Shown here one piece after another: positions 2,502 through 25,442 of a DNA stretch of 64,000 bases. The notes below the pieces were generated by a model. It ran no database searches. It worked only from the letters and a program-made list of their open reading frames with translations, and was not told where the DNA came from. Both the position numbers and the translations under genes were made by a program. Source of the stretch: Cellulophaga omnivescoria (GTDB taxonomy: Bacteria; Bacteroidota; Bacteroidia; Flavobacteriales; Flavobacteriaceae); NCBI RefSeq assembly GCF_001999725.1, contig NZ_MDDP01000015.1, positions 62,001-126,000 on the forward strand, read 5' to 3'. Positions within the stretch are counted from its first letter, which is position 1. Each line of letters starts with the position of its first letter.

Positions 2502-4307
2502 ATGTTCACATTTAAGAAAAAATGTATCATTCTTCTCGTTAGCTTTTTTTCAATAATTTCTTTTGCTCAAAAAGAAAATGAAATTCTTATTCATTCTCAT
2601 AATGATTATTTACAAAATGTGCCTTTTTGGAATGCTTTGTCTAGCGGAGCTAATATTATAGAAGCAGATGTTTGGCTTACTAAAAACAATTTATTTGTTG
2701 CACATACAAAAAATGAAATAATACCAAGTAATACGCTGCAAAGCTTGTACTTAAACCCTTTGCAACAGGCGGTAAAAAACAATCAGTTAACAACGTCTAA
2801 TTTAATAGTAATGATAGATGTTAAGTCTGATGCAGAAAAAACAATAAACAAAATTATATCGATCTTAAAAAAGTATACAGATTTAACTACGCACAAAAAT
2901 ATTAAGTTTTTAATATCTGGTAACAGACCTAAACCAAGTACATATTATACGTATCCTAATTATATTTATTTTGATCATCAGGAGCTAAACAATAACCTAA
3001 CTTCTAAAAATTGGGATAAAGTTGGTATGGTTAGCACAAGTTTTAAACAATATAGTGTATGGAATGGTAAAGGTAGATTAACACACACAGATTTTGATGT
3101 GGTAAGCAATGTAATAGCATCTGCTAAAAAATTAAATAAGCCTTTTAGGTTTTGGGCAACACCAGACTCTAAAACAGCATGGAGAACATTTGTAGATTTG
3201 GGTGTAGATGTTATTAATACAGATATGCCATACAAATGTGCTACCTACACAAAAACATTAGATAACCGTACAGTAACAACTCAAACTTTATCAGAAACTT
3301 ATATACCTACTTATGCTTCTGATAATAAAAACAAGCCAATAAAAAACGTTATTTTAATGATTGGTGACGGTATGGGCTTGTCTCAAATAACGGCAGCAAC
3401 AATTGCAAATAAAGGGCAATTAACACTTACGCAGTTAAAATCTGTTGGGTTACTAAAAACCCAATCTGCAGATGATCTAGTTACAGACTCTGCTGCTGCT
3501 GGTACTGCCATTGCTACTGGTCAAAAAACAAATAATAGGGCTATTGGTACAGATATTAATGGTAACCCTTTGCCTACTTTAGTAGAAATATTAGCAAAAG
3601 CTAATTTTTATACAGGTATTATAACTACAGATAAAATAACAGGGGCAACACCTTCTTCATTTTATGCAAAAGCAATAGATAGAGATAATACAGCACAAAT
3701 AGCAAAAGATTTATTAAAAAGCGATCTTCATTTTTTTGCTGGTGGCGGGGCTAGCTTGTATAAAAATTTACCTTTAAATAAGCAATATACTATTGTAGAT
3801 CATATATCTAAAGTAGGAGATAATACCTCTAAAAAACTAGGTGTATTTTTAGCAGATTCAGGAGTGCCATCTGTAATGGATGGTAGAGGTAATTTATTAG
3901 CCGAAACTACCAAACAAGCATTATTATACTTAAACAATAAAAACAAACCATTTTTTTTAATGGTAGAGGCAGCACAAATAGACTCGTTTGGGCACCATAA
4001 TAATACTAAAGGTATTGTAACAGAGACCATAGATTTTGATAAAGCAATTACAGAAGCAATAAAGTTTGCAGATAGTAATGAAGAAACCTTAGTAATTATA
4101 ACTGCAGATCATGAAACATCTGGTTTTGGTATTGCAAGTGGTAACGGTAACCACCAAAAAGTAGAAGGTGACTTTATAACTCATGACCATACCGCTACAA
4201 TGGTTCCTGTTTTTGCTTACGGACCAAAGTCTAACAATTTTACAGGAGTTTTTGAAAACACAGAGGTGTTTTATAAAATATTAGAGGCATTAGAAGTAAA
4301 AAAATAG
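2502..4307 (+). CDS. Secreted two-domain phosphatase: GDPD/AIM6-like domain fused to alkaline phosphatase
   Basis: This 601-residue protein has a signal peptide (residues 1-23, ending SFAQ). Residues about 28-250 resemble the PLC/GDPD-superfamily domain of AIM6-like proteins: HSHNDY at 31-36, an E54-x-D56 pair in IEADVW, and H68, which fit the metal and catalytic residues of that fold. Residues about 280-598 are an alkaline phosphatase (PhoA superfamily). This part shows MIGDGMG with a metal-binding Asp289, the nucleophile Ser330 in TDSAAAGTA, and a late TADHETSG metal-ligand motif. Family knowledge: the C-terminal half hydrolyses phosphomonoesters outside the cytoplasm. Inference: the N-terminal half could cut a phosphodiester and hand the monoester to the second domain. 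The gene sits right after a SusC/D operon but behind a terminator. Confidence 0.88.
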   Translation: MFTFKKKCIILLVSFFSIISFAQKENEILIHSHNDYLQNVPFWNALSSGANIIEADVWLTKNNLFVAHTKNEIIPSNTLQSLYLNPLQQAVKNNQLTTSNLIVMIDVKSDAEKTINKIISILKKYTDLTTHKNIKFLISGNRPKPSTYYTYPNYIYFDHQELNNNLTSKNWDKVGMVSTSFKQYSVWNGKGRLTHTDFDVVSNVIASAKKLNKPFRFWATPDSKTAWRTFVDLGVDVINTDMPYKCATYTKTLDNRTVTTQTLSETYIPTYASDNKNKPIKNVILMIGDGMGLSQITAATIANKGQLTLTQLKSVGLLKTQSADDLVTDSAAAGTAIATGQKTNNRAIGTDINGNPLPTLVEILAKANFYTGIITTDKITGATPSSFYAKAIDRDNTAQIAKDLLKSDLHFFAGGGASLYKNLPLNKQYTIVDHISKVGDNTSKKLGVFLADSGVPSVMDGRGNLLAETTKQALLYLNNKNKPFFLMVEAAQIDSFGHHNNTKGIVTETIDFDKAITEAIKFADSNEETLVIITADHETSGFGIASGNGNHQKVEGDFITHDHTATMVPVFAYGPKSNNFTGVFENTEVFYKILEALEVKK

Positions 4308-4337
4308 TTTTTTAATATTTCGTTTTTTAGTTTATTA

Positions 4338-4367
4338 GGCGTGGCAAAGTTTTTTGTCGCGCCTTTT
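4338..4367 (+). terminator. Terminator after the phosphatase gene
   Basis: An inverted repeat of about 11 pairs (GGCG at the left foot, CGCC at the right, two G-T wobbles inside) has a 4-base loop and is followed by TTTT. It lies between two convergent genes. The T-run overlaps the stop codon of the opposite sigma-factor gene. Confidence 0.75.
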
Positions 4368-4977
4368 AACTTTTAAAAAGTAGTACTCTTTTTAGTTTTA
4401 AGATAGAAAAATATAAAAATAAATTACTGTCTGTTTTATCATTTACTTTAGATCTTAAAATGTAAAAAGCTTTGGTAATTTGGGCTTCTACTGTTTTTAT
4501 AGATATATTTAAATACTCTGCTATTTCTATATTAGTTAAACCTTCTTGTTTACTTAATAAAAATACATTTTTACACTTAGGAGGTAAATTTTGTATTTCT
4601 TGCTTTACCTTTTTAATAAGACTGTCAAAAGATATAACATCTGTTTCTTCTACTAAATCATGTAAAGCATCTAAATATTTTTTCTCTAACGGAAAAACAT
4701 TTTTTTGTTTACGGTAATGGTCTATAAATTCATTATATACAGATTTGTATAAAAAACTCTTTAATGAAAAATAGGCCTTGAGCCTATCTCTTTTGCGCCA
4801 AACTCTCATAAAAACATTTTGCACAATATCTTCTGCCTCACTACGGTCATGTGTAAGGTTAAGGGCATAAACACAAAGCTTTTGGTGGTAATCATTTACA
4901 AGTTTATTGTATGCAGTTGTATCACCGGCCTTGAGTGCATTTATAAAATTAATGTCGCTATTTAATGTGGGACTCAT
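4366..4977 (-). CDS. ECF RNA polymerase sigma factor (FecI/Bacteroidota expansion type)
   Basis: This is a protein of about 203 residues with the two sigma-70 domains of an extracytoplasmic-function factor. Region 2 contains AEDIVQNVFMRVW, and region 4 is a helix-turn-helix with LTNIEIAEYLNISIKTVEAQI. I place the start at the ATG at 4977; an upstream TTG in the same frame (4989) would add four residues and is less likely. Family knowledge: such factors are held by a FecR anti-sigma protein and released when an STN-bearing outer-membrane receptor binds its ligand. The FecR gene lies 110 bases away on the opposite strand, with SusC and SusD behind it. Inference: it drives the 5088-18476 genes. 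Confidence 0.92.
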   Translation of the reverse strand: MSPTLNSDINFINALKAGDTTAYNKLVNDYHQKLCVYALNLTHDRSEAEDIVQNVFMRVWRKRDRLKAYFSLKSFLYKSVYNEFIDHYRKQKNVFPLEKKYLDALHDLVEETDVISFDSLIKKVKQEIQNLPPKCKNVFLLSKQEGLTNIEIAEYLNISIKTVEAQITKAFYILRSKVNDKTDSNLFLYFSILKLKRVLLFKS

Positions 4978-5087
4978 ATAAAAAGACAATAATTGGTTAA
5001 ATATGTTGCCAATATATAAAAAAGTTTAATAAAATGTTAGGGTTATGTAAAATGCTTACGTATTAAAGTATATATGTTAAAAATATA

Positions 5088-6263
5088 ATGAAAAAGAAAA
5101 TAACAAAATTAGATAAGTTAATAGTTAAGTACCTTACTAGAGAGTCTACTAAAAAAGAGCTCGATGGTTTAGAGGAGTTACTTAATAACGACTTAAATAA
5201 TGAAAAGTTTCTAAAGGAATATATAAAAATAAATGTTGTATCAGATTATGTATTACAAAAGTTTAATACAGAAAAAGCAAGGCAACAATTGTTAGATACT
5301 ATTAAAGAAGATAAAAAGAAAGCAAAGCAAGCTAAAATTTTTACCTTAATAAAATATTCTGCAGCTGCAGCTGTAGCGGTACTTGTAATGTCTGGTATAT
5401 TTTTTAAAACATCTTTATTTAATAAAACAGGAGCGGAGCCAGTACAAGTATCACATAATATAAAAGTAGGTTCTAATAAGGCAGTATTATCATTAGAAGA
5501 TGGATCGCTGGTGGTTTTAGAAAATGGTAAAGAGGTTAATGTTGGCAAGGCAAAAAGCAATGGTAAAGAGCTTACTTATAAAAAAGGGAGTAGAAACAGT
5601 AAAATTATTTATAATTCTTTAACTATACCACGCGGAGGTGAGTATTCATTACAATTGTCAGATGGAACTAAGGTTTGGTTAAATTCAGAAACAAAAATAA
5701 AATACCCAGTACATTTTAAAAAAGGAGAATCTAGGACTGTAGAATTGGTTTACGGCGAAGCTTATTTTGATGTTTCACCAAGTACGCACCATAACGGAGA
5801 TGGTTTTAATGTGGTTACCAACCAACAAAATATAGCAGTTTTAGGAACTGAGTTTAATGTGAAAGCATATAAAGATGAAAACTTTATATATTCTACTTTA
5901 GTAGAAGGCCATATAGTACTAGAAAATGGGACATACAAAGCAGATCTGTTGCCAGGACAACAGGCAGTTATAGCAAACGGAATTTCTGAAAAAGTTGAGG
6001 TTTACAACGTAAATGTAGATAATGAAATTGCTTGGAGAAAAGGAGTCTTTAACTTTAAAAATAAATCTTTAAAAGAAATAACAAAAGTATTGTCTAGATG
6101 GTATGATGTAGATGTTGTTATAGAAAATAAAGAATTAGAGAATATTAACTTTAAAGGAGTATTAGGAAAAACTCAAGACATAGAAACAATTTTACAAATA
6201 ATTAAAAACACTAGTAATATAAATGCCTATGAAATAAAAAATAGAACTATTTACATAAAATAA
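5088..6263 (+). CDS. FecR family anti-sigma factor
   Basis: This 391-residue inner-membrane protein has a cytoplasmic N-terminal part of about 80 residues, one membrane helix (about residues 84-106), and a periplasmic FecR domain with PRGGEYSLQLSDGTKVWLNS and GEAYFDV. The C-terminal DUF4974-type domain (from about 320) contains FKNKSLKEITKVLSRWYDV. Family knowledge: the N-terminal part binds the sigma factor and the C-terminal domain contacts the STN domain of the receptor. It is divergent from the sigma gene and 99 bases ahead of the STN-type SusC. That gap shows no clear terminator. Confidence 0.94.
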   Translation: MKKKITKLDKLIVKYLTRESTKKELDGLEELLNNDLNNEKFLKEYIKINVVSDYVLQKFNTEKARQQLLDTIKEDKKKAKQAKIFTLIKYSAAAAVAVLVMSGIFFKTSLFNKTGAEPVQVSHNIKVGSNKAVLSLEDGSLVVLENGKEVNVGKAKSNGKELTYKKGSRNSKIIYNSLTIPRGGEYSLQLSDGTKVWLNSETKIKYPVHFKKGESRTVELVYGEAYFDVSPSTHHNGDGFNVVTNQQNIAVLGTEFNVKAYKDENFIYSTLVEGHIVLENGTYKADLLPGQQAVIANGISEKVEVYNVNVDNEIAWRKGVFNFKNKSLKEITKVLSRWYDVDVVIENKELENINFKGVLGKTQDIETILQIIKNTSNINAYEIKNRTIYIK

Positions 6264-6362
6264 AGGGAACAAAGTTTATGCCGTCCAAAGAATAACACTT
6301 TATCCCCCATTTTATTTGAATCTTGATTAATTAAGTAACTAACCAAAAAAACACTCAAATTT

Positions 6363-9300
6363 ATGAAAATTAAATTAATGAATGTTCTCTTCTGCTATAG
6401 AAGAAAACTAATGATGACGATTATGAAAGCTTTTATCTTTTTATGGTGTACTGCAATTTTTAGTTTTACCACTACAAATTCGTTCTCACAAAATGCTAAA
6501 ATTAGTATCAAAGCAGATGCTATAGTTAGCGTAGATATGGTTTTTGATATTATTATGGAGCAAACAGACTATAAATTTATTTATAGTGAAGGCTTTTTTG
6601 ATGCTTACCCAAAAGTAACACTACATAAAGGAGTTATAAAAGCGAACGCACTGTTAGATAAAACACTAGAAAATAGTGATGTGTCTTATGAATTTTTGCC
6701 AAATAAAACAATAGTTATAGTAAAAAAAACAGATAACCTTACTGCTAATATGCAAATGCAAATTAAAGGTAAAGTGTTAGATGAGGGTAATTTACCATTG
6801 CTAGGAGTAACTATACTTGTAGAGGGTACAGCAAATGGAGTTACTACAGATTTTGATGGTAATTATGCCATAAAAGCGAAACCAGGTGATGTGTTAAGTT
6901 TTTCATATGTAGGTTATCTTACTCAAAAAGTGACTGTTACAGAAAATAAAAGTGTGATTAATGTAGTTTTAAAAGAAAACGTAAATGTTTTAGATGAGGT
7001 TACAGTAATTTCTACAGGATATCAGCAAATATCAGAAGAAAGGTCTACTGGTGCTTTTGAAACAATTAAAAAAAGTCAGTTAGACAAGCCAGCCTCTAGT
7101 ATATCAGAAAGGTTAGTTGGTATGGTTGCTGGTTTACAAAGTACAATTAATGCAGACGGATCGGTAGATTTTCAGATTAGAGGTCAGTCTAGTTTATTTG
7201 CAGACCAACAACCTTTAATTGTATTAGATGGCTTTCCTATAGAAGGTGGTTTTGAAACCATTAACCCTAACGATGTAGAAAGTATTACCGTTTTAAAAGA
7301 TGCTGCTGCTGCTTCTATTTGGGGTGCAAAATCTGCAAATGGTGTAATTGTTGTTACAACAAAAAAAGCAAAACAAGGAAAAACTAATATATCTGTATCT
7401 ACTTTTGTAAAGGTTTCAGACAAATTAGATTTGGATTATTCTATCGCTTCAGCTTCAGCCAGTGATGTGTTAGCTTATGAGCAATCTGCTTTTGATACTA
7501 ACTTTTTTGGAAGTCTTTTTGGAGGTCCTCAAGGCGCTAGTCCGTTTAATTTAAATTCATACTCTTTAGGGTTAACGGCTATGAATGAAGCTCGTTTAGG
7601 AAGAATAACAGCTTCAGAAAGAGACGCTACATTAGCCACCTTATCTGGATTAAATAATAAAAAGCAGATAGAGAAATATTTATTACAATCTCCTATTACA
7701 TCACAATATAATATTAGTGTGTCTGGAGGTAGTGATACCATGAAAAATAACTTATCATTATTATATGAGGATAATAAAACTTTCTTTAAGGGAGATGAGC
7801 AAAGCAAATACCTTATTAATTATACGAGTAAAATAAAGGTTAATGATAGATTAGATTTTGATTTTGCAGGTATGATGCAGTATAGAGATATAAGAAACAA
7901 CTCTGGAGAGCAAAATTTATATGGAGAAGGAGATATGCTTAGTACTATTAGGTCTTTAGCTCCTTGGGATATGTTGGTTAATGAAGATGGTAGTAGAACA
8001 GATTTATCATATTTAAAGTATTATACACCTAACTTAAATGCTTTTGTGCCTACAGATGCATTTCCGTATTCAGATTGGTCTTATAACCCAATAACCGATG
8101 TAGAAAACAGAGATTTTTCTACAAAAAGTTTAAATAGTCGTATACAGGCTGGTTTAAATTTTAAAATTATGGACGGTCTTTCTATTTCATCTAAAATACA
8201 GTATGAAATTTTTAAGACTAACGAAGAAAATTATTACAACGAAAAAACCTTTGATGTACGCCAGTTTGTAAACGAAACTTCTGGTTGGAACCGTGATTTT
8301 AATACTATACCAACACAAAATATACCTTCTGGTGGTATTTTAAAAAAATCTGACGCAACAATAAATTCTTATAATTTTAGAAATCAGCTTAATTTTAATA
8401 GAACATTTGCAGACAAGCATACTATTAACTTTATAGCAGGTACAGAACTGTCTAACAGAGTATATAAGAGTACAGTGCACCCAGATTCTTTTGGTTATAG
8501 TGATGAAACTTTAGCATCATCAGAACTGTTAAACCCTGTGCAATCTGCTACAATGTGGAATGGTTTTCCATTGCGTTTTGCTAGTTTCTATTATCCGTTT
8601 AACTTAACACCAACTAGTACTTACCAAGAAAATACAAACAGATTCTTTTCATTATTTGGTAACCTTGGTTATACTTTTAATAATAAATATACCATAACTG
8701 GTAGTTATAGAACAGATGCATCAAACCTAATAACAGACGATCCATCATTTAGGTACAATCCGTTTTGGTCTGTAGGTGGTAGCTGGAAAGCGCACAAAGA
8801 AGGTTTTTTAAATGATGTAGAATGGTTAAATAGGTTAAACTTAAGGGCAACCTATGGTTTTAATGGTAATGTAGACAGGTCTACTTCGTTTAAACCACTA
8901 ATTGCTTTAGGCTCTTCATTAAATGTTTTTACACAAGAAAACACTGCAACCATATCTAGTTTTGGTAACCCAACACTTAGATGGGAAAAAACCAAAACTT
9001 TAAATTTTGGTGTAGATTTTTCATTATTTAAAAGCAGACTTAACGGTTCTGTAGATGTTTATAATAAGCAAAGTTTTGATTTAATTGTTTCACAGTCTAT
9101 TGCATCTGTAAACGGTACAACTAACCAAAAATTTAATAATGGTGAAATGTATAACAGAGGTATAGAGGTAACACTTGGTACCACTTTACCTATTAGCGGT
9201 AATGATGTAGTTTGGACCGGTTCTGTTAATTATGCTTATAATAACAATAAGGTTACTAATTTCTTTAAAACTAATTATCAAGCCCCAGAATTATATAGCG

Positions 9301-9980
9301 GACCAACAACATCTTACGTAGAGGGGTATAACGCCAATACGTTATGGTCATACCAATATTCAGGTTTAACCAATGTGGGCACAGATGCCAATCCGGTATT
9401 AAAACCATCTGTTGTAGGTGAAGGAGGAACTCCTATAACATTAATTAGTTGGCCACAAGGTAATGCTATAGAATATATGGAGTCTCAAGGTACTTTAGTA
9501 GCACCTACCACAGTAGGTATGAGAAACTCTTTTAAAATTTATGATTTTGATTTATCATTTATAGTAACAGGTAAATTTGGACACGTATTTAGAAGACAAG
9601 GCTTTAACTATAACTCATTAGCAAGCGGTGGTAATACACAAGTTAATGAAAAGTATAGTGAAGTAGCTAACGGAGATCCAAACCAAATATTACCTATACC
9701 TGAAGAAGAAGGACGTTATTTTTTTTATGATCGTTTTCATCCTTATATGGATTATTTAACCGAAGATGCATCACACATAAGATTTCAAGAAATTAGTTTA
9801 TCATATTCTTTACCATCTAAAGTTGTTAGTGATTTGGGTATTAATGCCTTACGTTTTTACGCACAAGCTAATAATGTTGGTACTATTTTATTTAACGATT
9901 TTGGAGAAGACCCAGAGTATCCTAAAGGAGGTTTACGCTTACAAAGCTCATTAACTTTTGGAATGAATTTAAACTTTTAA
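6363..9980 (+). CDS. SusC/RagA TonB-dependent receptor with STN signalling domain
   Basis: This 1205-residue protein has, in order, an extended N-terminal signal peptide (to about residue 43, ending NSFSQ), an STN (secretin/TonB N-terminus) domain at about 48-120, a carboxypeptidase-regulatory-like beta-sandwich at about 132-212 (DFDGNYAIKA, FSYVGY), the TonB box and plug (about 213-350), and a 22-strand-type barrel ending in Phe. Several in-frame ATG codons near the start leave the exact first residue uncertain. Family knowledge: STN-bearing receptors both import the ligand and signal through FecR to the sigma factor. It is followed by SusD after 11 bases and the TlpA-like array, so its ligand is probably linked to the redox proteins encoded downstream (inference). 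Confidence 0.96.
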   Translation: MKIKLMNVLFCYRRKLMMTIMKAFIFLWCTAIFSFTTTNSFSQNAKISIKADAIVSVDMVFDIIMEQTDYKFIYSEGFFDAYPKVTLHKGVIKANALLDKTLENSDVSYEFLPNKTIVIVKKTDNLTANMQMQIKGKVLDEGNLPLLGVTILVEGTANGVTTDFDGNYAIKAKPGDVLSFSYVGYLTQKVTVTENKSVINVVLKENVNVLDEVTVISTGYQQISEERSTGAFETIKKSQLDKPASSISERLVGMVAGLQSTINADGSVDFQIRGQSSLFADQQPLIVLDGFPIEGGFETINPNDVESITVLKDAAAASIWGAKSANGVIVVTTKKAKQGKTNISVSTFVKVSDKLDLDYSIASASASDVLAYEQSAFDTNFFGSLFGGPQGASPFNLNSYSLGLTAMNEARLGRITASERDATLATLSGLNNKKQIEKYLLQSPITSQYNISVSGGSDTMKNNLSLLYEDNKTFFKGDEQSKYLINYTSKIKVNDRLDFDFAGMMQYRDIRNNSGEQNLYGEGDMLSTIRSLAPWDMLVNEDGSRTDLSYLKYYTPNLNAFVPTDAFPYSDWSYNPITDVENRDFSTKSLNSRIQAGLNFKIMDGLSISSKIQYEIFKTNEENYYNEKTFDVRQFVNETSGWNRDFNTIPTQNIPSGGILKKSDATINSYNFRNQLNFNRTFADKHTINFIAGTELSNRVYKSTVHPDSFGYSDETLASSELLNPVQSATMWNGFPLRFASFYYPFNLTPTSTYQENTNRFFSLFGNLGYTFNNKYTITGSYRTDASNLITDDPSFRYNPFWSVGGSWKAHKEGFLNDVEWLNRLNLRATYGFNGNVDRSTSFKPLIALGSSLNVFTQENTATISSFGNPTLRWEKTKTLNFGVDFSLFKSRLNGSVDVYNKQSFDLIVSQSIASVNGTTNQKFNNGEMYNRGIEVTLGTTLPISGNDVVWTGSVNYAYNNNKVTNFFKTNYQAPELYSGPTTSYVEGYNANTLWSYQYSGLTNVGTDANPVLKPSVVGEGGTPITLISWPQGNAIEYMESQGTLVAPTTVGMRNSFKIYDFDLSFIVTGKFGHVFRRQGFNYNSLASGGNTQVNEKYSEVANGDPNQILPIPEEEGRYFFYDRFHPYMDYLTEDASHIRFQEISLSYSLPSKVVSDLGINALRFYAQANNVGTILFNDFGEDPEYPKGGLRLQSSLTFGMNLNF

Positions 9981-9991
9981 AATAAAGAATT

Positions 9992-11518
9992 ATGAAAACA
10001 TACAAACATATATTAGTACTAGTTTTATTGTGTGCAGGTGTTAGTTGTAACGATTTTTTAGAAGAAAATCCTTCTAAAACTACATCTGTAGTGCCAGAAA
10101 CTTTAGATCATTTAGAACAGTTACTTAACAATTATAACAGCTTTGCCAGTGAAGGAGCATCAGAATTAATTTATGGAACAGATGATTTTGCCATACAAAC
10201 AGATTTGTACAATGGTATTTCTAATGTATTTACTTTAGAAACCGTGCAATATGGTACTTGGGATATAGATTATTTGCCAACAACAGGTAGACCGTATTGG
10301 CCAGAGGAATGGAAAAAAATATTTACGGCAAATCTAATTTTACAAAATTTGCCAAATGTAAGCGGAGATCCTACGCAAAAACAAATGATAGAGGCAGAGG
10401 CTCATTTTATTAGAGCTTATAGCTATTTTCAAATGGCAAATATTTACTGCTTACCTTATACCAATGCTAATAAGGCAGAATTAGGTTTACCATTAAAGCA
10501 AACTACTAGTTTTGAAGAAAACATAGAAAGAGCAACCTTAGAGGAAACTTACGCATACATAGATGCAGATTTACAAAAAGCCTTAGAGTTAAATAGAGAT
10601 TTAGAGGTTATAAACGGACAAAACAGAACCTGGAGAGCAAGTACGGTAGCTGTTTTAGGTTTTGCAGCCAGGTATTATTTATCTTTAAATGATTATGCAA
10701 TGGCGCAATCATACGCAGAAGATGCCTTAGATTTACATAGCTATTTAAGAGATTATAATACAGATATGCGTTTTTCTACTAGGCCTAATCCTGTAACTAT
10801 TTTTAATCCAGATCCAGAAACGGTTAATATAGATTACCCGTATACTCATGATTTACAATCTATACCTACAGATAAGTTAGAGTGGGGAGAGTCTTACTAC
10901 TATAGATTTTTAAACAATGGCGCTTGGAACTATTTTCCATCAACAGAGCTATTATCTATTTATGACCAAGATTATGACTTACGTTATAAATTTCATATAG
11001 TAGAAGATTATACTTACGACAGAGGTTCTGTAGATCCGCCATATAGTTACCCAGGATATATTTTCTTCTTTAAGTCAGATATTTTAAGTGGACCGTCTGC
11101 ACCAGAAATGTTATTAATAAAAGCAGAATGTCAAGTTCGTCAAGGAAACTGGGCAGATGGTATACAAACTGCAAACATTTTAAGGCAGTATAGAATAGAC
11201 GCCAGTGCACCTGCTAATATTAGAGATTTAGCTGCAACATCACAAGCAGATGCTTTAACTAAAGTTTTAGAAGAGCGTAGAAGAGAACTACCTTTTGTAC
11301 ATAGATGGTATGATATTAGAAGGTTTAATAATAACGAAGTAGATACAGATGATGTTATTATGAGCAGAACTTTTTATCCATACACAAGTGGTTCTATTTT
11401 AGATGCAGAAACTCCTATAAACTTTACTTTAGAGAAAAACTCAAGAAGGTTTGCTCGTCCAATTCCAGAGACAGACATTATTGCCTCTGGCGGTACTTTA
11501 AAACAAAACGAGTATTAA
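9992..11518 (+). CDS. SusD/RagB family outer membrane lipoprotein
   Basis: This 508-residue lipoprotein has a signal peptide ending GVSC, with the lipidated Cys at about 20. The N-terminal helical part carries EAHFIRAYSYFQMANIYC, and the C-terminal part carries EERRRELPFVHRWYDIRRFN, both standard SusD landmarks. It starts 11 bases after SusC and ends 5 bases before a strong hairpin terminator, so the basic SusC/D transcript can end here and the redox genes may be read by partial readthrough or from their own promoter. The ligand is unknown. Confidence 0.95.
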   Translation: MKTYKHILVLVLLCAGVSCNDFLEENPSKTTSVVPETLDHLEQLLNNYNSFASEGASELIYGTDDFAIQTDLYNGISNVFTLETVQYGTWDIDYLPTTGRPYWPEEWKKIFTANLILQNLPNVSGDPTQKQMIEAEAHFIRAYSYFQMANIYCLPYTNANKAELGLPLKQTTSFEENIERATLEETYAYIDADLQKALELNRDLEVINGQNRTWRASTVAVLGFAARYYLSLNDYAMAQSYAEDALDLHSYLRDYNTDMRFSTRPNPVTIFNPDPETVNIDYPYTHDLQSIPTDKLEWGESYYYRFLNNGAWNYFPSTELLSIYDQDYDLRYKFHIVEDYTYDRGSVDPPYSYPGYIFFFKSDILSGPSAPEMLLIKAECQVRQGNWADGIQTANILRQYRIDASAPANIRDLAATSQADALTKVLEERRRELPFVHRWYDIRRFNNNEVDTDDVIMSRTFYPYTSGSILDAETPINFTLEKNSRRFARPIPETDIIASGGTLKQNEY

Positions 11519-11522
11519 AACT

Positions 11523-11560
11523 AATAAAGGAAGTAACCTTTTAGTTACTTCCTTTATTTT
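11523..11560 (+). terminator. Strong hairpin terminator between SusD and the TlpA array
   Basis: A nearly perfect inverted repeat of about 14 pairs has arms carrying AAAGGAAGTAAC and GTTACTTCCTTT. It closes on a 6-base loop and is followed by ATTTT. It separates the SusC/D pair from the four thioredoxin-like genes that follow. Confidence 0.88.
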
Positions 11561-11655
11561 CTTGATTATACAGCTACTTACGTGTAAAATACATAGTAAG
11601 TACAGAGATGCTATTTTATAATTTTCTTCAAATAAATCATTATTTATACCATATT

Positions 11656-12843
11656 ATGCCTAAACTTTTAAAAAATACAATATACTTATTGTGCGTTTTG
11701 TTGCTTTCATTTTCTAATGAAATTTATGCACAGCAAGCCAACAACACATTTACACTTAAAGGAGAAATTAAAGGATTAAAAGGTAACTTGTATTTTAGAC
11801 ATCCAGATAAAAAATATACAAGAGAAACACTGTCAGATTCTATAATTGTAACAGACGGAAAATTTAATTTTTCTGGTACTATTTCTAATTTATCGCAAAT
11901 TAGAGTGTATCCTGGTTTTGATGGACCAGATGGTAAACTTTTTAAAAAGCCAAAAGGTGGCCGTGGAATGTTTCCTGTAAAATGTGTATACCTAACATTT
12001 TATGCTTTTCCAGGAGCAAATATTACAGTAAGTGGTGAAGCTACAGATTTTATGAACGCTTACCCAAGCGGTGATAAATTTAATAACAGTTTAGCTGCAG
12101 CAAACAGGTTAATGTACCCAATGTATAACAAAATGGGAAACTTAGCTGTTAAAAATACCTACGAGACAGACTCTGTAACTATTAAAGCCAATAATAAACA
12201 ATCAGAATTACTTTTTACTGCATCCATTAAAAAGTTAAAAAATCATATAAAAAACAACCCTAATTCTGTAGCAGCGGCTTGGTATTTAAACGATTTAATT
12301 TTACGCACACAAGTTACTAATGAAGAGGCAGAAGAGTTATTTGCTTCATTATCTACAGATTTAGCAGAATACTCAGATTACCAAAGTGTAGCAGAACGGA
12401 TAAAAGGAATAAAAGCTACTGCAGATGGTTCTCCAGTACCATCAATACAAACTACAGCTACACTATCTGGCAAAGAGTTTAATATTAATTCTTTAAAAGG
12501 AAAGTATGTGTTAATAGATTTTTGGGGTATATGGTGTGGTCCTTGTGTTGCAGAAATGCCACACGTAAAAGAGTTTCAAGAAAAACACAAAGATAATTTA
12601 GTTGTATTAGGAATTAACTCTGGAGATACTAAAGAAAAAATAGAGGCATTTACGGTTAAAAACGGATACAATTGGCAACAACTTTTAAGTGATAAAGCCA
12701 ATACAACAGACAACTTTGTAAACCGATTTAATGTACAAGGTTTTCCAACCAAATTTATTATAGATAGAAGAGGAAAAATAGTGAAACGCTTTGTTGGTGG
12801 AGGAGAAGAAGCTTTTGAAATGTTAGATGAATTATTAAAATAA
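11656..12843 (+). CDS. TlpA-like thiol-disulfide oxidoreductase, type A copy 1
   Basis: This is a secreted protein of about 395 residues. I choose the ATG at 11656 because it gives a clean signal peptide (MPKLLKN... to YAQ) that matches the paralogue at 15292; an in-frame ATG at 11608 would add 16 non-signal residues. The N-terminal part (about 30-130) is DUF4369-like, with GLKGNLYFRHPDK. A helical linker follows, then a TlpA/thioredoxin domain from about 265 to the end. The redox pair is Cys294-Gly-Pro-Cys297 and the cis-proline region is FNVQGFPTKF. Family knowledge: TlpA proteins reduce or isomerise disulfides in the periplasm. It is the first of four such genes in a row; the last one is its close paralogue. 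Confidence 0.92.
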   Translation: MPKLLKNTIYLLCVLLLSFSNEIYAQQANNTFTLKGEIKGLKGNLYFRHPDKKYTRETLSDSIIVTDGKFNFSGTISNLSQIRVYPGFDGPDGKLFKKPKGGRGMFPVKCVYLTFYAFPGANITVSGEATDFMNAYPSGDKFNNSLAAANRLMYPMYNKMGNLAVKNTYETDSVTIKANNKQSELLFTASIKKLKNHIKNNPNSVAAAWYLNDLILRTQVTNEEAEELFASLSTDLAEYSDYQSVAERIKGIKATADGSPVPSIQTTATLSGKEFNINSLKGKYVLIDFWGIWCGPCVAEMPHVKEFQEKHKDNLVVLGINSGDTKEKIEAFTVKNGYNWQQLLSDKANTTDNFVNRFNVQGFPTKFIIDRRGKIVKRFVGGGEEAFEMLDELLK

Positions 12844-12856
12844 AATTTTTAGAGAT

Positions 12857-14056
12857 ATGGGTACAAAATTAAAAGTATTAGTAGCAATTATAAGTTTTAG
12901 TACTGTTTTTTATTCTTGTAAAGATAAAGAGCAGTCTAAAAATAACAAAGGTTTTGTTGTTAACGGAACAGTAAAAGGACTAGACAATTCATATGCAAAA
13001 ATTACAGACTATCAATTTTTTAACTCTAATCCTTATACAGTTATAGATAGTGTTGCAGTGGTAAACGGAAAGTTTGAACTTATAGGAGAAGTTGCTTTTC
13101 CAGATATGGTAACGCTAGAAATAGGAGATTACAAAACAAATTTTTTCTTAGAAAACAGTACAATCAAAATTTCTGTAGATGTTTCAAATGTTAAGAGTCC
13201 AAGAGATCAGGTAAAATTAGATGTAGTTGGGTCTTTAAGCCACAGTAAATATAAGGCCTTAGAAGAACAAACTAGTGCTGTTTTTAGCGATAAAAAGTAC
13301 GATGTTTTTAAGGAGGTAAGAGAAATGTTTGCCAAAGCTAAAGAAGAGGGTAATGAAGAATTACTTAACGAAGCTTTAAAAAAACAAGAAGGTTTACAAG
13401 ATTTAGCAGAAGAAAGAAATGCTAGATATAAAAATATAAAATTTGATTTTGTAAAAGCTAATCCAAGTAATACAATTTCGCCTTATGTTCTTGGTGTACA
13501 GTATACAGAAGGAAGAATGACTAGAGAACAACTAAAAGAATTCTATGCTATTTTTAAAGGAAATGCACGCAAGACTACATTTTTTAAAACCTTTATTACA
13601 AAAATATACAAAGATAATTTTGAAAACTTAGGTGTAGGAAATACAGCTCCCGATTTCACTTTAAACACAAACACGGGAGAAGAGTTAACCTTGTCTAATG
13701 TAAAAGGTAAATACATTTTAGTAGATTTTTGGGCAAGTTGGTGTGCACCTTGTAGAGCTTCTTTTCCGCATTTAAAAGAGTTAAGAAAGCAGTATAAAGA
13801 TAAAGGATTTACAATAGTTGGCGTAGGTACAGCAGATGAAAAAGAAAAGTGGGAGAAAGCAATAGAGGAAGACCAAACACCGTGGAACCACGTTTATGAT
13901 ACTAGTGAAAATCACTCTTATGGCCCAATTGCAAAATCTTACGGCGTACCACATCTACCAACAACACTACTGGTAGATAGCAACAGAAAAATAGTTTTAA
14001 GAAACCCAACTAAGGAAGAACTAGATAGCAAATTAAAAGAGCTACTTGGGCACTAA
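12857..14056 (+). CDS. TlpA-like thioredoxin lipoprotein, type B copy 1
   Basis: This 399-residue protein has a lipoprotein signal peptide with Cys at about residue 21 (VFYSCKDK). It has an N-terminal DUF4369-like beta domain (to about 130), a charged helical linker rich in Glu and Lys (about 145-190), and a C-terminal TlpA domain with the redox pair Cys296-Ala-Pro-Cys299 and a VPHLPTTLLVD cis-proline loop. It starts 13 bases after the previous gene and ends 18 bases before the next. It closely resembles the next gene. Unlike the type A proteins, which have ordinary signal peptides, both B copies look membrane-anchored. The substrate is not known. Confidence 0.92.
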   Translation: MGTKLKVLVAIISFSTVFYSCKDKEQSKNNKGFVVNGTVKGLDNSYAKITDYQFFNSNPYTVIDSVAVVNGKFELIGEVAFPDMVTLEIGDYKTNFFLENSTIKISVDVSNVKSPRDQVKLDVVGSLSHSKYKALEEQTSAVFSDKKYDVFKEVREMFAKAKEEGNEELLNEALKKQEGLQDLAEERNARYKNIKFDFVKANPSNTISPYVLGVQYTEGRMTREQLKEFYAIFKGNARKTTFFKTFITKIYKDNFENLGVGNTAPDFTLNTNTGEELTLSNVKGKYILVDFWASWCAPCRASFPHLKELRKQYKDKGFTIVGVGTADEKEKWEKAIEEDQTPWNHVYDTSENHSYGPIAKSYGVPHLPTTLLVDSNRKIVLRNPTKEELDSKLKELLGH

Positions 14057-14074
14057 TTTATTAAAACCGCAATT

Positions 14075-15277
14075 ATGAAAAATTCTTTTTTAAAATTAAC
14101 AAGAGTACTTCTTATTAGTTGTTTATTCTGCATAGGTTGTAAAACTAACACAGAGCATAATGGGTATACTATTACAGGCATTGTTAAGGGAGCTAAAGAA
14201 GGAGCTTGGGTAAAATTAAAAAATACACCATCGCTTTTTACAGATCCCATAATAACTTTAGATAGTACTAAAATTACTAACGGCACATTTAAATTTACTG
14301 GTAATGTAGCCAATGTAGATATGGTTGGTGTTTATATAGAGCCTAACATTGGCACATACTTTTTTTTAGATAACAATACTATTAACATAGCTATTGATGT
14401 AGCAAAATCTGAAAAAGGAAACGGGTATACACCAGCTAATATAACGGGTTCTAAAACCCAAGCATTGTATGAGTTGCAAAAACAAAAAATGGATAGTATA
14501 CGAAGTCAAGACAAATACAGTGCGTTTATAGGCTTTAGAGAAATGGTTATGGCTGCAAAACAGTCTAAAGATAGTATTTTAATGGAGCAAGTAAAGCAAA
14601 AAATGACAGCTTTAGAGCCATTAGAAAAACAGCAACAAGAAGAACTTAAGGAGTTTAAAATAAACTTTGTTAAAAACAATCCAAATTCACCAATTGGTCC
14701 TAAAATTATGGGCATCACTTTTAGTGAAATTATGATGTCTAGAGAAGAAATGAAAACGGTATATAACCTGTTTAAAGGAGACGCTGTAAAGTCTAGCTCA
14801 TTTGCTTTTATCAAAAAAACGTATCAAGATTATGTAGAAAAATTTGTTCCTGGGGCTACGGCACCAGATTTTACCTTAACAACCAATACAGGAGAACAAC
14901 TAACATTATCTAAGGTAAAAGGAAAATATATTTTAGTAGATTTTTGGGCAAGTTGGTGTATACCTTGTAGAGCTTCATTCCCTAAGTTAAAAAAAGTTTA
15001 TAATACTTATAAAAATGATGGTTTTGAGGTTGTAGGTGTTGCTACTGGCGACAAAGATAAAAATTGGAGAGATGCTATTGTAAAAGACCAAACTCTATGG
15101 TTACACGTTTTTGATGAAAACAAGAAAAGCAAAGGACGTAATGGCGACGTTGCAGATGCTTATGGAGTTCCTTTTTTACCAACTACCTATTTGCTAGATA
15201 GTAACCTTAAAATTATACTTAGAAACCCTACAAAAGAAGAGCTAGATGCTAAACTTATAGAGTTGTTTAGACTTTAG
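14075..15277 (+). CDS. TlpA-like thioredoxin lipoprotein, type B copy 2
   Basis: This 400-residue paralogue of the preceding gene has a lipoprotein signal (FCIGCKT, Cys at about 25), a DUF4369-like N-terminal domain, a helical linker, and a TlpA domain with redox pair Cys295-Ile-Pro-Cys298 in a FWASWCIPCRASFP context. The residue between the cysteines differs from copy 1 (Ile for Ala), which in thioredoxin-fold proteins can shift redox potential. The C-terminal segment NPTKEELDAKLIELF is nearly the same as in copy 1. Only 14 bases separate it from the next gene, so the array is read as one operon. Confidence 0.92.
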   Translation: MKNSFLKLTRVLLISCLFCIGCKTNTEHNGYTITGIVKGAKEGAWVKLKNTPSLFTDPIITLDSTKITNGTFKFTGNVANVDMVGVYIEPNIGTYFFLDNNTINIAIDVAKSEKGNGYTPANITGSKTQALYELQKQKMDSIRSQDKYSAFIGFREMVMAAKQSKDSILMEQVKQKMTALEPLEKQQQEELKEFKINFVKNNPNSPIGPKIMGITFSEIMMSREEMKTVYNLFKGDAVKSSSFAFIKKTYQDYVEKFVPGATAPDFTLTTNTGEQLTLSKVKGKYILVDFWASWCIPCRASFPKLKKVYNTYKNDGFEVVGVATGDKDKNWRDAIVKDQTLWLHVFDENKKSKGRNGDVADAYGVPFLPTTYLLDSNLKIILRNPTKEELDAKLIELFRL

Positions 15278-15291
15278 TAATTAAAATAAAA

Positions 15292-16482
15292 ATGACTATG
15301 AAAAATGTTCACAAACTAGTATTGCTTTGCTTTTTGGCACTTATGAGTTTTAAGCAAAATAACGCACAAAAAACAGACAATACATTTACACTTACTGGAG
15401 AAATAAAAGGATTAAAAGGCAACTTGTATTTTAGACATCCAGATAAGGAATATACTAGGAATACACCATCAGACTCTATTGTGGTTAAAAATGGGAAGTT
15501 TAAATTAACTACGAATGTATCTAAAATGGCTATGATAAGGGTGTTTCCTTCATTTAAAGGGCCAGACAAAAAGCTATCTAAAATTCCTAAAGGTGGTAGA
15601 GGTTATTTTCCTGTAAAATGTGGTGCTATTATGTTATATGTATCGCCGGGGGCAAATATTACAATTAAAGGCGAAGCAAAAGATTTTTTTGATGCTTACC
15701 CAAGCGGCGATGCTTTTAATGATGGTTTAGCTAAAGTTAACAAACTTATGTATCCAATGTATAACAAAATGGGCAACCTAGCCGTAGAAAGCACTTACGC
15801 AGAAGATGAAGCTAAAAAAGAAGAAATTGAAAAAAAATCTGAAATTATCTTTAAAAAATCTATAGATGCTCTAACTAATCATATAAAAAATAATCCTAAC
15901 GATTTGGCTTCGGCTTGGTATTTAAACGATTTAATGTTACGTACCCAAATAACCAATGAACAAGCAGAGGAACTCTTTAATTCTTTATCTACAGATTTAG
16001 CTGAGTATCCAGACTATAAAGATGTTGCAACAAGAGTACAAGGTATTAAAGAGACTGCAGATGGTTCTCCTGTACCAAGTATAAAAACTAACGCTACTTT
16101 AAGTGGGAATTCCTTTAACATTAATGAACTTAAAGGAAAATATGTACTTATAGATTTTTGGGGTATTTGGTGTGGTCCTTGCGTTGCAGAAATGCCAGAA
16201 GTTAAAAAATTTCAAGAAAAACATAAAGATAATTTGGTAGTTGTTGGTATTAACTCTGGGGATACAAAAGAAAAAATACAAGCCTTTGTAGCTAAAAATA
16301 ATTATGGTTGGATACAGTTAATGAGTGACAAAAAAAATACACTAGACAATTTTGTAAACAGATTTAATGTACAAGGGTTTCCAACAAAATTTATTATAGA
16401 TCCTAACGGAAAAATTATTAAAAGATTTGTGGGTAGTGGAGAAGATGCCTTTAAAATGCTAGAAGAATTACTTAAAATTTAA
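15292..16482 (+). CDS. TlpA-like thiol-disulfide oxidoreductase, type A copy 2
   Basis: This 396-residue paralogue of the gene at 11656 matches it along most of its length, including GEIKGLKGNLYFRHPDK, NAYPSGD/DAYPSGD, NRFNVQGFPTKFIID and the ends of both proteins. It has a signal peptide (cut after NNAQ), a DUF4369-like domain and a C-terminal TlpA domain with Cys294-Gly-Pro-Cys297. The start may be the ATG at 15292 or the one two codons later. With the three genes before it, it completes an A-B-B-A order on one strand. The 16-base gap to the DsbD-domain gene supports co-transcription. Confidence 0.92.
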   Translation: MTMKNVHKLVLLCFLALMSFKQNNAQKTDNTFTLTGEIKGLKGNLYFRHPDKEYTRNTPSDSIVVKNGKFKLTTNVSKMAMIRVFPSFKGPDKKLSKIPKGGRGYFPVKCGAIMLYVSPGANITIKGEAKDFFDAYPSGDAFNDGLAKVNKLMYPMYNKMGNLAVESTYAEDEAKKEEIEKKSEIIFKKSIDALTNHIKNNPNDLASAWYLNDLMLRTQITNEQAEELFNSLSTDLAEYPDYKDVATRVQGIKETADGSPVPSIKTNATLSGNSFNINELKGKYVLIDFWGIWCGPCVAEMPEVKKFQEKHKDNLVVVGINSGDTKEKIQAFVAKNNYGWIQLMSDKKNTLDNFVNRFNVQGFPTKFIIDPNGKIIKRFVGSGEDAFKMLEELLKI

Positions 16483-16498
16483 CCTTAAAACATAAAAA

Positions 16499-16987
16499 AT
16501 GCGTTTTTACCGTATTATTGCCATTTTGCTTTTTGTGGGTGCAAACGTTAGTGCTTATGCCCAAGATATAAAAAGTAAGCCAGATACACCTACATCTTTA
16601 GACCCAGTACAGGTTAGTGCTAGTATTGTATCTACAGAAGACCCAACAGTTAAAACTCTAATTTTTAATGTTGCAATTTTAGAAGGATATCATATTTATG
16701 CTTATGTATCTCCGCAAGATCCGTACATCCAATCTAAGTTAAAATTGGAACTTCCAGAAGGTGTTACAAATTTAGGGGAGCTCCAAACACCAACTCCTAC
16801 TGCTTATCCTGGCAAAGGAGAGTTATATGTATACACAGGTAACATTCAGTTTAAGCAGCCTTTAAAAATAGCTGAAGATTATAACAACTTAACTGCTATT
16901 AAATGCGGACTGTTTTACCAAACCTGTAACGCAAATATTTGTTTGCCACCAATACAAAAAGACGTTTTACTAACTTTAAAAAACTAA
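16499..16987 (+). CDS. Free-standing DsbD N-terminal (DsbD-alpha) domain protein
   Basis: This 162-residue secreted protein (signal peptide to about residue 22, AYAQ) has the features of the N-terminal domain of DsbD: an immunoglobulin-like fold of about 120 residues and the motif FYQTCNANICLPP, giving the reactive pair Cys143 and Cys148, plus an extra Cys136. Family knowledge: in full DsbD this domain takes electrons from the membrane part and passes them to periplasmic thioredoxin-like proteins. Here the membrane and C-terminal thioredoxin parts are absent, and none are encoded elsewhere in the window. Placed directly behind four TlpA-like genes, it is probably their redox partner (inference). 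It ends 4 bases before the next start. Confidence 0.83.
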   Translation: MRFYRIIAILLFVGANVSAYAQDIKSKPDTPTSLDPVQVSASIVSTEDPTVKTLIFNVAILEGYHIYAYVSPQDPYIQSKLKLELPEGVTNLGELQTPTPTAYPGKGELYVYTGNIQFKQPLKIAEDYNNLTAIKCGLFYQTCNANICLPPIQKDVLLTLKN

Positions 16988-16991
16988 TTAT

Positions 16992-18476
16992 ATGAAAAAT
17001 TTATTTCAAAAATTATTGCTTTTCATTTTTATGATAGCTTTAGTGCCTACAGGCTATAGTCAAACTAAAAAAAACGATTTAAAAATTCTTTATGTTGGTA
17101 CAAACCCAGATAAGCCTTTAAGTGACAGGGAAAAAAGTATATACACAAACCTAGAACGTAAAGTTGCATTAAGAAAAACAAGGGCTAACGATTTTAAAGA
17201 CTTAATTAGTAAGCACTTTAATTCTGTAACAGTTGTCTATGGCGATGATTTTAAAGAAGAAATGGCTGCTGATTATGATGTAACAATTATAGATACTTAT
17301 TTAACACCTTTTGCAGGCGGATATGAGAAAGACGAAAATGGTAAAATAATTGGGTACAATACCAAAAAATATTTAACGGAGAACTACAATGCAGCAACCA
17401 TAATGATTGGTGAACCTTCTGCATTTATAGGAGAAGGAAGAGACCTTAAAATGGATCATTTGTGCTTGTGTTTAGATGCGCACGCACACGGTATGAAGTT
17501 AGATCATCCAATTTTTAATACACCTAACAAAATAAATGTAACCTATGAAACTAAAGAAACTCCTGCTAACTACAAGGCAAGATATGGCGGTAAACACTTA
17601 GACAAAACAATGCAAATGTGGCGTATACAAACAGAAGGTTATACAGAAGGCAAAGGAATGCCTATAGGTTTAGTATCTACAGGTTATGCTTTTGATAATG
17701 ACATAGATGCAGAGTGGATTTCTGGGGGATATAATTCTAAAGGTGTAGAAGCCACAGCTATTGGTCGTCATGCAAACTTTTTGCATTGGGGTTTTGCTGC
17801 AGCACCAGAGTATTTAACACAAAGCGCTAAACTAGCTTTTATAAATGCAATACACTACATAGCTAAGTATAAAGGCGCTAAACAAGTTACCCGAAAAATA
17901 AAAAGAATACCTTTAAGACAATATTTAAGAGAAAGTCAATGGACTGTTTCTGATGAAGGTTCTGCTGCATGGTTGCATTATATAAATAAAGATACTTTAA
18001 AAATGCGACTAGAAAAAGAAAAAATACAAGCTAAAAAAGATGCAGGTAAGCAACTATCAGAATTAGAAAAAATGCAACTTAGAATGCCAATTAGAAAAGA
18101 AACCAGAATATGGACTATTAGGCATGAACCACAGTATTTAAAAGAAAAATTTGGAGAAAACTGGGCAATGTATGAAAACTATTATAAAGAGAATATGGAT
18201 TATTTTTATCCTATTCCTGATGAAAGATATACATATTGGAGTGCAGTAGATGAAGATGCTAAAGCTTTAGGGATAGCGAATAACAACATTAAAATTTTGG
18301 AAACCGCTATTGCGATGCTTACTAATAATGACCGTACAGAAATGGCTAAGCGTATTTTAAAAAGGTATACTAATGAAACTTTTAGCACTGCAAAAGAATG
18401 GAAAAAATGGTTTAATAAAAATCGTAAAAATCTCTATTTTTCTGAAGGTGATGGTTACAAATACATAATTATCTAA
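16992..18476 (+). CDS. Secreted protein of unknown function, possible ThuA/glutamine-amidotransferase-like N-terminal half
   Basis: I do not recognise this 494-residue protein with certainty. It has a signal peptide (to about residue 24, TGYSQ). The first half (about 28-300) begins with a strand LKILYVGTN and alternates strands and helices in a way that recalls ThuA or class I amidotransferase-like folds; it holds a notable segment DHLCLCLDAHAHGMKLDHPIF near residues 155-175. The second half is rich in Lys/Glu helices and ends with EWKKWFNKNRKNLYFSEGDGY. From memory, a similar ending occurs in some thioredoxin-domain proteins of Planctomycetes and Bacteroidota, which I could not verify. It is the last gene of the redox array, 4 bases after the DsbD-domain gene, and is followed by a terminator. 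Confidence 0.8.
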   Translation: MKNLFQKLLLFIFMIALVPTGYSQTKKNDLKILYVGTNPDKPLSDREKSIYTNLERKVALRKTRANDFKDLISKHFNSVTVVYGDDFKEEMAADYDVTIIDTYLTPFAGGYEKDENGKIIGYNTKKYLTENYNAATIMIGEPSAFIGEGRDLKMDHLCLCLDAHAHGMKLDHPIFNTPNKINVTYETKETPANYKARYGGKHLDKTMQMWRIQTEGYTEGKGMPIGLVSTGYAFDNDIDAEWISGGYNSKGVEATAIGRHANFLHWGFAAAPEYLTQSAKLAFINAIHYIAKYKGAKQVTRKIKRIPLRQYLRESQWTVSDEGSAAWLHYINKDTLKMRLEKEKIQAKKDAGKQLSELEKMQLRMPIRKETRIWTIRHEPQYLKEKFGENWAMYENYYKENMDYFYPIPDERYTYWSAVDEDAKALGIANNNIKILETAIAMLTNNDRTEMAKRILKRYTNETFSTAKEWKKWFNKNRKNLYFSEGDGYKYIII

Positions 18477-18484
18477 AAAAAAAA

Positions 18485-18509
18485 GCCACCGTTACGGTGG
18501 CTTTTTTTT
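18485..18509 (+). terminator. Terminator at the end of the redox array
   Basis: A perfect GC-rich hairpin has arms GCCACCG and CGGTGGC and a 3-base loop. A run of eight T follows. It closes the operon that ends at 18476. Confidence 0.93.
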
Positions 18510-18687
18510 ATAAGGCTAGATTACAACTGTTAATTTACTATCCTTATATCTTATATTTTGACAAAATAATTTTTCTACGTTAGCAATATTTTGAAGTACC
18601 TTTAAGCAATAGGCAGAAACTTCATCATCTTATATATGTGAAAAAAAATTATAGCTATTACTAAAAAAAACTTATATGCGCTACAAT

Positions 18688-19125
18688 TTATTTAGCTTTA
18701 CTGTTATAGTACCATAAATTTACTATAAAGTTTAAGGACATACCAATTAGTAATAAAGGTATAAAAAAGCTTTGTGTACAAACCAGTTCTAAAAATACTT
18801 CTGTATTTGTCCAAGAGTTCCCAAACTCTATTCTATTAGCGTAGGCAATATCAAAAAAAATGTAAGAGATTAGTAATATTGGCATTAGAAGAAATACTAT
18901 AATTCTAAAAATTTTATTTTTAAATATGGGTAAAAACCAGATGCACAATAATATGTATATAATACATAACATAAGTGGCAGTACCAACTCATTATTATAA
19001 GGGTTGTAGTACTCCATTTTGCTTAAAAATAATTTTTGAAAAACCAATACAGGCCCCCAAATAGAGAGTAGGGAAGTAAGTAAAAAAATTATTTTAGATA
19101 TAGGCTTTTTTTTAGCTTTTGGCAT
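18688..19125 (-). CDS. Small multi-pass membrane protein, function unknown
   Basis: This is a protein of about 145 residues starting at the ATG at 19125, with a basic N-terminus (MPKAKKK). An upstream in-frame ATG at 19191 would add 22 polar residues and would lie close to the previous terminator, so I prefer the shorter form. Hydropathy by eye shows four membrane helices, separated by short loops rich in Lys and Asn. I recognise no family. It lies downstream of a SusD gene on the same strand but behind a terminator, so co-transcription is unlikely. The gene could be a species-level accessory gene. Confidence 0.6.
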   Translation of the reverse strand: MPKAKKKPISKIIFLLTSLLSIWGPVLVFQKLFLSKMEYYNPYNNELVLPLMLCIIYILLCIWFLPIFKNKIFRIIVFLLMPILLISYIFFDIAYANRIEFGNSWTNTEVFLELVCTQSFFIPLLLIGMSLNFIVNLWYYNSKAK

Positions 19126-19210
19126 AGTAAACGTATTTATTACATGAACGTTATATACGTGTCTAAATTGTTTATTAATACTTAAAAACATAAAAATACT
19201 ACATAATTAA

Positions 19211-19235
19211 AAAGCCAGGCAAAATGCCTGGCTTT
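19211..19235 (-). terminator. Terminator after the second SusC/D locus
   Basis: A perfect 11-pair inverted repeat (AAAGCCAGGCA / TGCCTGGCTTT) has a 3-base loop. On the minus strand it is followed by a T-rich stretch. It lies 64 bases after the SusD stop. Confidence 0.88.
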
Positions 19236-19298
19236 ATTGCTAATTACTTAACGAGGTAATGAAAAACTAAAAAACTAAAATTAGCAAGTTATTGTTAT

Positions 19299-21065: not shown

Positions 21066-21074
21066 TATTATATT

Positions 21075-24350: not shown

Positions 24351-24385
24351 TAATTTAAGTGTTAGTTAATAATACTTGAAAATTT

Positions 24386-24414
24386 AACCGTAGTTGTTGG
24401 TAGCAGCTGCGGTT
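24386..24414 (-). promoter_or_regulatory. Inverted repeat between FecR and SusC, possible attenuator
   Basis: Two 11-base arms (AACCGTAGTTG and CAGCTGCGGTT on the plus strand, with three G-T pairs) are separated by 7 bases. On the minus strand the hairpin falls just after the FecR stop and 36 bases before the SusC start, followed by AAATTTTC. It could weaken readthrough from sigma/FecR into SusC, or be an mRNA-processing site. Confidence 0.5.
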
Positions 24415-24419
24415 TTTCT

Positions 24420-25346: not shown

Positions 25347-25442
25347 AAACTTGTTTTATATAGGTAAGTACCCAAAACAAGTAATTAGTACTATTGGCAA
25401 ATGTTACCAAAAGTTTAAGCAAACATTAAGTGAAATATTTTT

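Follow-up and report, generated by a model that had tools for sequence, protein, structure and literature searches.

A SusCD receptor locus paired with a thiol-redox module and an unnamed CxC protein family in Cellulophaga omnivescoria

The window analysed here is a stretch of 64,000 nucleotides from Cellulophaga omnivescoria (contig NZ_MDDP01000015.1, positions 62,001 to 126,000), within which positions are counted from its first letter. One cluster in the window (4366..18476) encodes an extracytoplasmic function (ECF) sigma factor, a FecR-type anti-sigma factor, a SusC/RagA TonB-dependent receptor and its SusD lid lipoprotein, followed by an array of four TlpA-like proteins, a lone N-terminal domain of DsbD (nDsbD) and an exported protein of 494 residues (P494). 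Genome comparison indicates that P494 and nDsbD are partners: they are encoded in one stretch in every contig found and are fused in nine. On the same comparative grounds, the linkage of the receptor to the redox genes is real, because it is conserved across genera and orders, including the nine natural P494–nDsbD fusions. P494 represents an unnamed protein family, and its fusion to nDsbD is the most interesting part of the system, above the TlpA array. For the function of the cluster, our leading and still tentative reading is TonB-dependent uptake through SusCD of a ligand on which a periplasmic module for thiol-disulfide exchange would act, the ligand being most likely a peptide that is then degraded.

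Receptor and redox genes in other genomes

One scan of public genome contigs yielded 19 loci with P494, on contigs that span Flavobacteriaceae, Marinifilaceae, Marinilabiliaceae, Odoribacteraceae, Prevotellaceae and unclassified Bacteroidales, among others. An earlier sequence-only reading of the window had tied the receptor to the redox array, and had named beforehand the finding that would overturn this link, that is, redox genes not conserved beside SusC/D; the comparison instead found them conserved, with TlpA in 18/19 contigs and SusC or SusD in 17/19. The co-occurrence of P494 with TlpA arrays and FecR-linked SusC, which the same reading had proposed to look for, was also found (SusC in 15/19 and FecR in 8/19 contigs). 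DsbD_N is present around P494 in 19/19 contigs, SusD in 16, sigma factors in six, M16 peptidases in four and S9 peptidases in two; many of these stretches stop at a contig or flank end, and two (L028, L030) have neither SusC nor SusD in the stretch examined. P494 and nDsbD form a single polypeptide in 9/19 loci, the number of TlpA copies per stretch ranges from 0 to 9, and the cysteines are retained in nDsbD and in nearly all of the TlpAs. A locus found separately (G248) encodes FecR, SusC, SusD, TlpA, P494, nDsbD, a short thioredoxin and an M16 peptidase. The constant core is nDsbD with P494; the exact gene set of the window is not conserved.

Of the 16 P494 loci that have an upstream SusD, 13 have a TlpA gene on the same strand no more than 4.5 kb after SusD, compared with one of 40 control SusD loci (Fisher p 4e-9, a value that overstates independence since the loci are related); within 1.5 kb the counts are 8/16 and 0/40, and DsbD_N was found downstream of none of the 40 control SusD genes. 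The controls were Flavobacteriaceae SusD genes, taken from the top of the listed minus-strand matches until 40 with room downstream had been reached, and at least 5.2 kb was examined past each; two rows too close to a contig end were excluded. The sole control with a nearby TlpA (L121) is from the window's own genome. In that genome, 25 matches are SusD-like and 21 belong to the Redoxin family; of the 20 SusD-like matches listed, three are no more than 6 kb away from one to the Redoxin family. In a genome so rich in both, the two kinds of gene might be chance neighbors; with the linkage conserved in 18/19 contigs and two orders, with fusions, and TlpA within 4.5 kb in only 1/40 controls, we regard this explanation as extremely improbable.

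P494 is rare. It was matched in 8/299 genomes of the family, the window's own included, and three of the eight matches are broken (G297), chimeric with N (G139) or tiny (G072, 59 residues) and are not counted as members of the P494 family. In 395-genome samples of the phylum and of the class, no P494 was matched beyond the window's own genome; these whole-genome counts are lower bounds, and the PF11412 search of the own genome missed the window nDsbD. The nearest relative, from Seonamhaeicola algicola, is 87% identical, and two of the loci (L036 and L040) are near-identical and so not independent. Two P494 copies occur in each of three loci: in L031 and L041 one copy is fused to nDsbD, and in L032 one is truncated. 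The gap between SusD and P494 in L032 (9293-9979), judged by eye only, apparently holds a decayed TlpA. The P494 locus L039 encodes, at 12813-16183, two DUF4369 proteins that have no thioredoxin domain by Pfam and match NHL repeats weakly.

The redox module also accompanies at least two receptor types, as judged from a tree of 53 SusD sequences built by a quick method. Ten of the 17 P494-linked SusDs, the window's included, group in a single clade whose members come from Flavobacteriaceae, Odoribacteraceae and Prevotellaceae (SH-aLRT 99), and a second clade holds those of L034, L038, L039 and L043 (SH-aLRT 97). In the main clade, the cysteines at the YCLPY and KAEC motifs (C153 and C380 in the window) are both present in nine of the ten SusDs, L033 being the exception, and the pair is found in 0/43 other SusDs aligned. 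This conserved pair favors a housekeeping role in which the redox genes would introduce or mend disulfides in exported proteins of the locus itself, such as SusD C153/C380, instead of acting on the ligand. However, the SusDs of L034, L038 and L043 have no cysteine past residue 60 and yet retain the redox module, and the window SusC has none beyond residue 29; thus, the redox genes cannot exist solely for receptor maturation, and service to SusC cysteines in particular was rejected. Housekeeping would also leave the P494–nDsbD fusions unexplained, and we hold it to be unlikely.

The gene set of the window

The sigma factor gene (4366..4989, minus strand) belongs to the TIGR02985 family (137.5 bits against a cut-off of 126.4) and is divergent to the FecR gene (5088..6263, plus strand, as are all of the following genes); the gap between them (4990..5087) contains a promoter-like motif, AGGGT..TAAAA, that was seen by eye and recurs in relatives. 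FecR and FecR_C are both above cut-off in the anti-sigma factor, whereas its score against the E. coli FecR model (51.3 bits) is under the cut-off of 385. The SusC/RagA receptor (6363..9980) matches the SusC/RagA model, and its residues 70-122 match STN weakly (14.4 bits, Pfam cut-off 28.4, E 0.035). SusD (9992..11518) is separated by 89 bp from the array, which begins with TlpA1 (11608..12843, WGIWCGPC) and continues with TlpA2 (12857..14056, WASWCAPC), TlpA3 (14075..15277, WASWCIPC) and TlpA4 (15292..16482, WGIWCGPC). All four have an N-terminal DUF4369 domain before the TlpA domain and retain the WCxPC site, and TlpA2 and TlpA3 have, by eye, lipoprotein-like starts; TlpA1 and TlpA4 are 71% identical and TlpA2 and TlpA3 42%, that is, the paralogue pairs are nested in an ABBA order. 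The array ends with nDsbD (16499..16987) and P494 (16992..18476), the gaps from TlpA1 through P494 being 13, 18, 14, 16 and 4 bp, and a terminator-like hairpin follows on the plus strand (18477..18510; -19 kcal/mol with 18470-18520 folded). The families and the close spacing inside the array that the sequence-only reading had described therefore stand; its sigma factor is on the minus strand, and its STN assignment falls under the Pfam cut-off.

A second SusC/SusD unit lies on the minus strand just downstream (18688-25955) and has no redox genes; it contains SusD (19299-21065) and SusC (21075-24350) and, by eye, FecR-like (24420-25346) and sigma-like (25443-25955) genes. On the other side of the cluster, an open reading frame (ORF) at 2502-4307, located 3' of another SusC/SusD pair, encodes a GDPD-like phosphodiesterase region with an alkaline phosphatase domain.

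P494, its partner and the candidate ligand

P494 has a signal-peptide-like start, a ThuA-like N-terminal domain with a CxC motif (C158/C160) and a helical C-terminal region of about 200 residues. The CxC is invariant in 23/23 P494 sequences, and the window protein has no other cysteines; one sequence in the alignment (L032:953-2146) is a truncated copy, so invariant columns past about residue 390 are undercounted. Searches of Pfam, NCBIfam and PHROGs gave nothing over cut-off for P494, the two NCBIfam matches (E 0.035-0.036) being far under theirs; the window protein has no Pfam match up to E 5, and all matches of the P494 profile to PDB sequences have E >0.5. The N-terminal domain models as ThuA-like, and so does the domain with which a known SusCD partner binds levan; the assignment of P494 rests on VIA-align comparison and on the model of an nDsbD-fused relative. 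ThuA (PF06283) is missing from the 16 Pfam families that the 23 relatives matched at E 1 or below. The window nDsbD (162 residues; PF11412, E 8e-12) has a C-x4-C-LPP site, and its ORF holds DsbD_N alone, without the transmembrane or C-terminal thioredoxin domains; it has no match under E 0.69 among PDB sequences.

SusCD pairs import through TonB, and FecR-type proteins relay the state of a receptor to ECF sigma factors; nDsbD is an electron carrier between domains of the thioredoxin fold. In the mechanism that we favor, the ligand would enter through the TonB-dependent SusCD, and occupancy of SusC would be signaled to FecR and from FecR to the ECF sigma factor, as the protein families suggest. 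The cell's full DsbD, the gene for which lies elsewhere, would supply reducing equivalents to TlpA and nDsbD and, through them, to the P494 CxC, while the ThuA-like domain of P494 would bind the incoming ligand. We infer that the ligand bears a disulfide or thiol and would first be reduced, after which peptidases such as M16 would degrade it. Perhaps it is a peptide, our best guess because M16, M1 and S9 peptidases are encoded near P494 in some relatives and because RagAB is a known peptide importer, as described in PMC11817032. In Neisseria PilB, nDsbD reduces a TlpA-fold domain (PMC6210582). A more specific proposal, which we consider doubtful, is that P494–nDsbD is a new periplasmic thiol enzyme with a ThuA fold, its CxC charged directly by the DsbD alpha domain, that reduces a disulfide-bearing ligand imported by SusCD (disulfide-rich peptides or thiol-conjugated molecules); the lid, too, has a cysteine pair.

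In the window's own genome, one DsbD transmembrane match is over cut-off, and it lies within the full DsbD of a cluster on contig C4 (L049, 908-7799), where successive genes encode an M16 peptidase, TlpA, this DsbD and a DsbD_N-like protein. Two class-V aminotransferases (L022:4562-6106 and L055:2138-3625) are 53% identical; one adjoins a full DsbD beside a P494 locus and the other is about 11 kb 5' of the window sigma gene, perhaps by coincidence.

Several observations weigh against uptake coupled to thiol-disulfide exchange on a peptide. The peptidases near P494 are a minority feature and are absent from the window cluster, and an M16 pair also adjoins one of the 40 control SusD genes (L092). 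P494 is not a thioredoxin-fold protein, so direct transfer from nDsbD to its CxC would be new. The CxC loop has pLDDT <50 in the window P494 model, for which Foldseek alone gives 4jqs_A as its best match (E 0.029) and none at E <0.001. TlpA is missing at L037, is 5' of the cluster at L032 and is behind a second SusCD pair at L040; the SusDs of L031, L044 and L045 are outside both clades. A terminator-like hairpin of 15 pairs (11523..11558; -18.1 kcal/mol, z -5.9) lies between SusD and TlpA1, and strong hairpins follow SusD in six of seven relatives whose gaps were folded (L027, L032, L034, L037, L038, L042), that in L033 being weaker (-9 kcal/mol); the stretches were chosen for folding after hairpins had been seen by eye. 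Finally, some neighboring genes suit other ligands: heavy-metal efflux genes near one P494 locus (G169), and genes for GH88 and a hybrid two-component regulator 5' of SusCD in L036.

Because the 89-bp gap holds a hairpin, a single transcript from SusD through the array is not a given. Within 4250-18750, promoters and terminators are no more numerous than in shuffles, and single hairpins alone stand out. The sigma gene is divergent to FecR in L018, L029, L032 (first unit), L033 and L034 as in the window, and is on the FecR strand in L031 and L037; the AGGGT/TAAAA motif was seen by eye in 5/6 divergent gaps printed, L034 being the one without it. P494 starts 6, 6 and 11 bp past SusD in L036, L040 and L044. 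Given the divergent sigma genes of relatives and these short gaps, shared control of SusCD and the array is plausible from gene order; the array might also be expressed at a reduced level past a leaky terminator, or from separate promoters.

TlpA keeps ScoI and CoxB reduced in copper delivery, and this is the model for a metal or metallophore alternative in which the P494 CxC and the SusD pair bind a soft metal or its complex and TlpA and nDsbD keep the cysteines reduced. The CxC and the conserved cysteine pairs would suit such a role, as would FecR/sigma control that resembles ferric-citrate signaling, and the G169 efflux genes (L022 6501-11144; a heavy-metal P-type ATPase, a CusB/HlyD-like protein and an HMA protein) are a few kb past P494. 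However, metal genes were recognized at one locus only (most neighbor ORFs being outside the Pfam scan) and on the opposite strand, and peptidases occur in more relatives; we consider metal handling rather unlikely.

The ligand could also be a glycan or another molecule without a thiol, bound by P494 as levan is by a surface glycan-binding protein (SGBP), with the redox genes merely guarding P494 against oxidation. The modeled ThuA-like fold common to P494 and the levan-binding domain and the L036 neighbors agree with this, but no carbohydrate-active enzyme (CAZyme) family was found among the ten window cluster proteins scanned against Pfam, and P494 is fused to nDsbD. Furthermore, the window P494 and 11 others of the 23 cannot be lipoproteins like SGBPs because they have no cysteine before residue 60; lipidation was judged by cysteine positions, since a strict lipobox pattern misses the window's own SusD and TlpA2. 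A glycan ligand is quite unlikely.

Comparison with known systems

The sequence-only reading knew of no described system with exactly this set, and none was found in the open-access literature, subscription papers being outside the search. PMC10434189 names a TlpA gene of Prevotella intermedia as iron-regulated and also lists a DUF4369 gene of B. thetaiotaomicron; PMC4936053 contained nothing pertinent. Most work on SusCD importers treats them as transporters of glycans and peptides; here the receptor is accompanied by a thiol-redox relay and an nDsbD-fused CxC protein, which points to a link between import and sulfur redox chemistry. Some marine and gut Bacteroidota encode an outer-membrane receptor beside thiol-handling proteins, which suggests that the imported molecule is processed by such chemistry. 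The locus gives a functional lead for the TlpA/DUF4369 proteins of Bacteroidota and, if the proposed transfer is true, would add a partner without the thioredoxin fold to the clients of nDsbD.

The window shares its sigma factor, FecR, SusC and SusD with SusCD/RagAB uptake loci under ECF sigma/FecR control, but has a thiol-redox module with P494–nDsbD instead of a glycan-active enzyme; compared with a polysaccharide utilization locus, it has the SusCD pair and lacks the carbohydrate-active enzymes. Signaling of the FecI/FecR/FecA type is represented by the sigma factor and FecR, with the receptor's STN match under cut-off. The window SusC matches RagA at 3e-49 but 8ypu_C at 2e-69, SusC homologues also being better matches than RagA, and RagB is not among the matches of the window SusD. 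By model comparison, the N-terminal domain of P494 has the fold of ThuA-like proteins and of the levan-binding SGBP BT1761; P494 differs in having no Pfam ThuA match, in its invariant CxC, in its extra helical region and, in the window, in the absence of a lipidation cysteine. The L049 cluster of the same genome places M16, TlpA, full DsbD and the DsbD_N-like protein side by side, with no SusCD or P494 in 14 kb. With the DsbD/ScsB relay and its TlpA-like clients (CcmG, the PilB N-terminal domain), the window shares the nDsbD fold and cysteine pair; here, however, nDsbD stands alone or is joined to a ThuA-like CxC protein, in a chain without the membrane and C-terminal thioredoxin domains.
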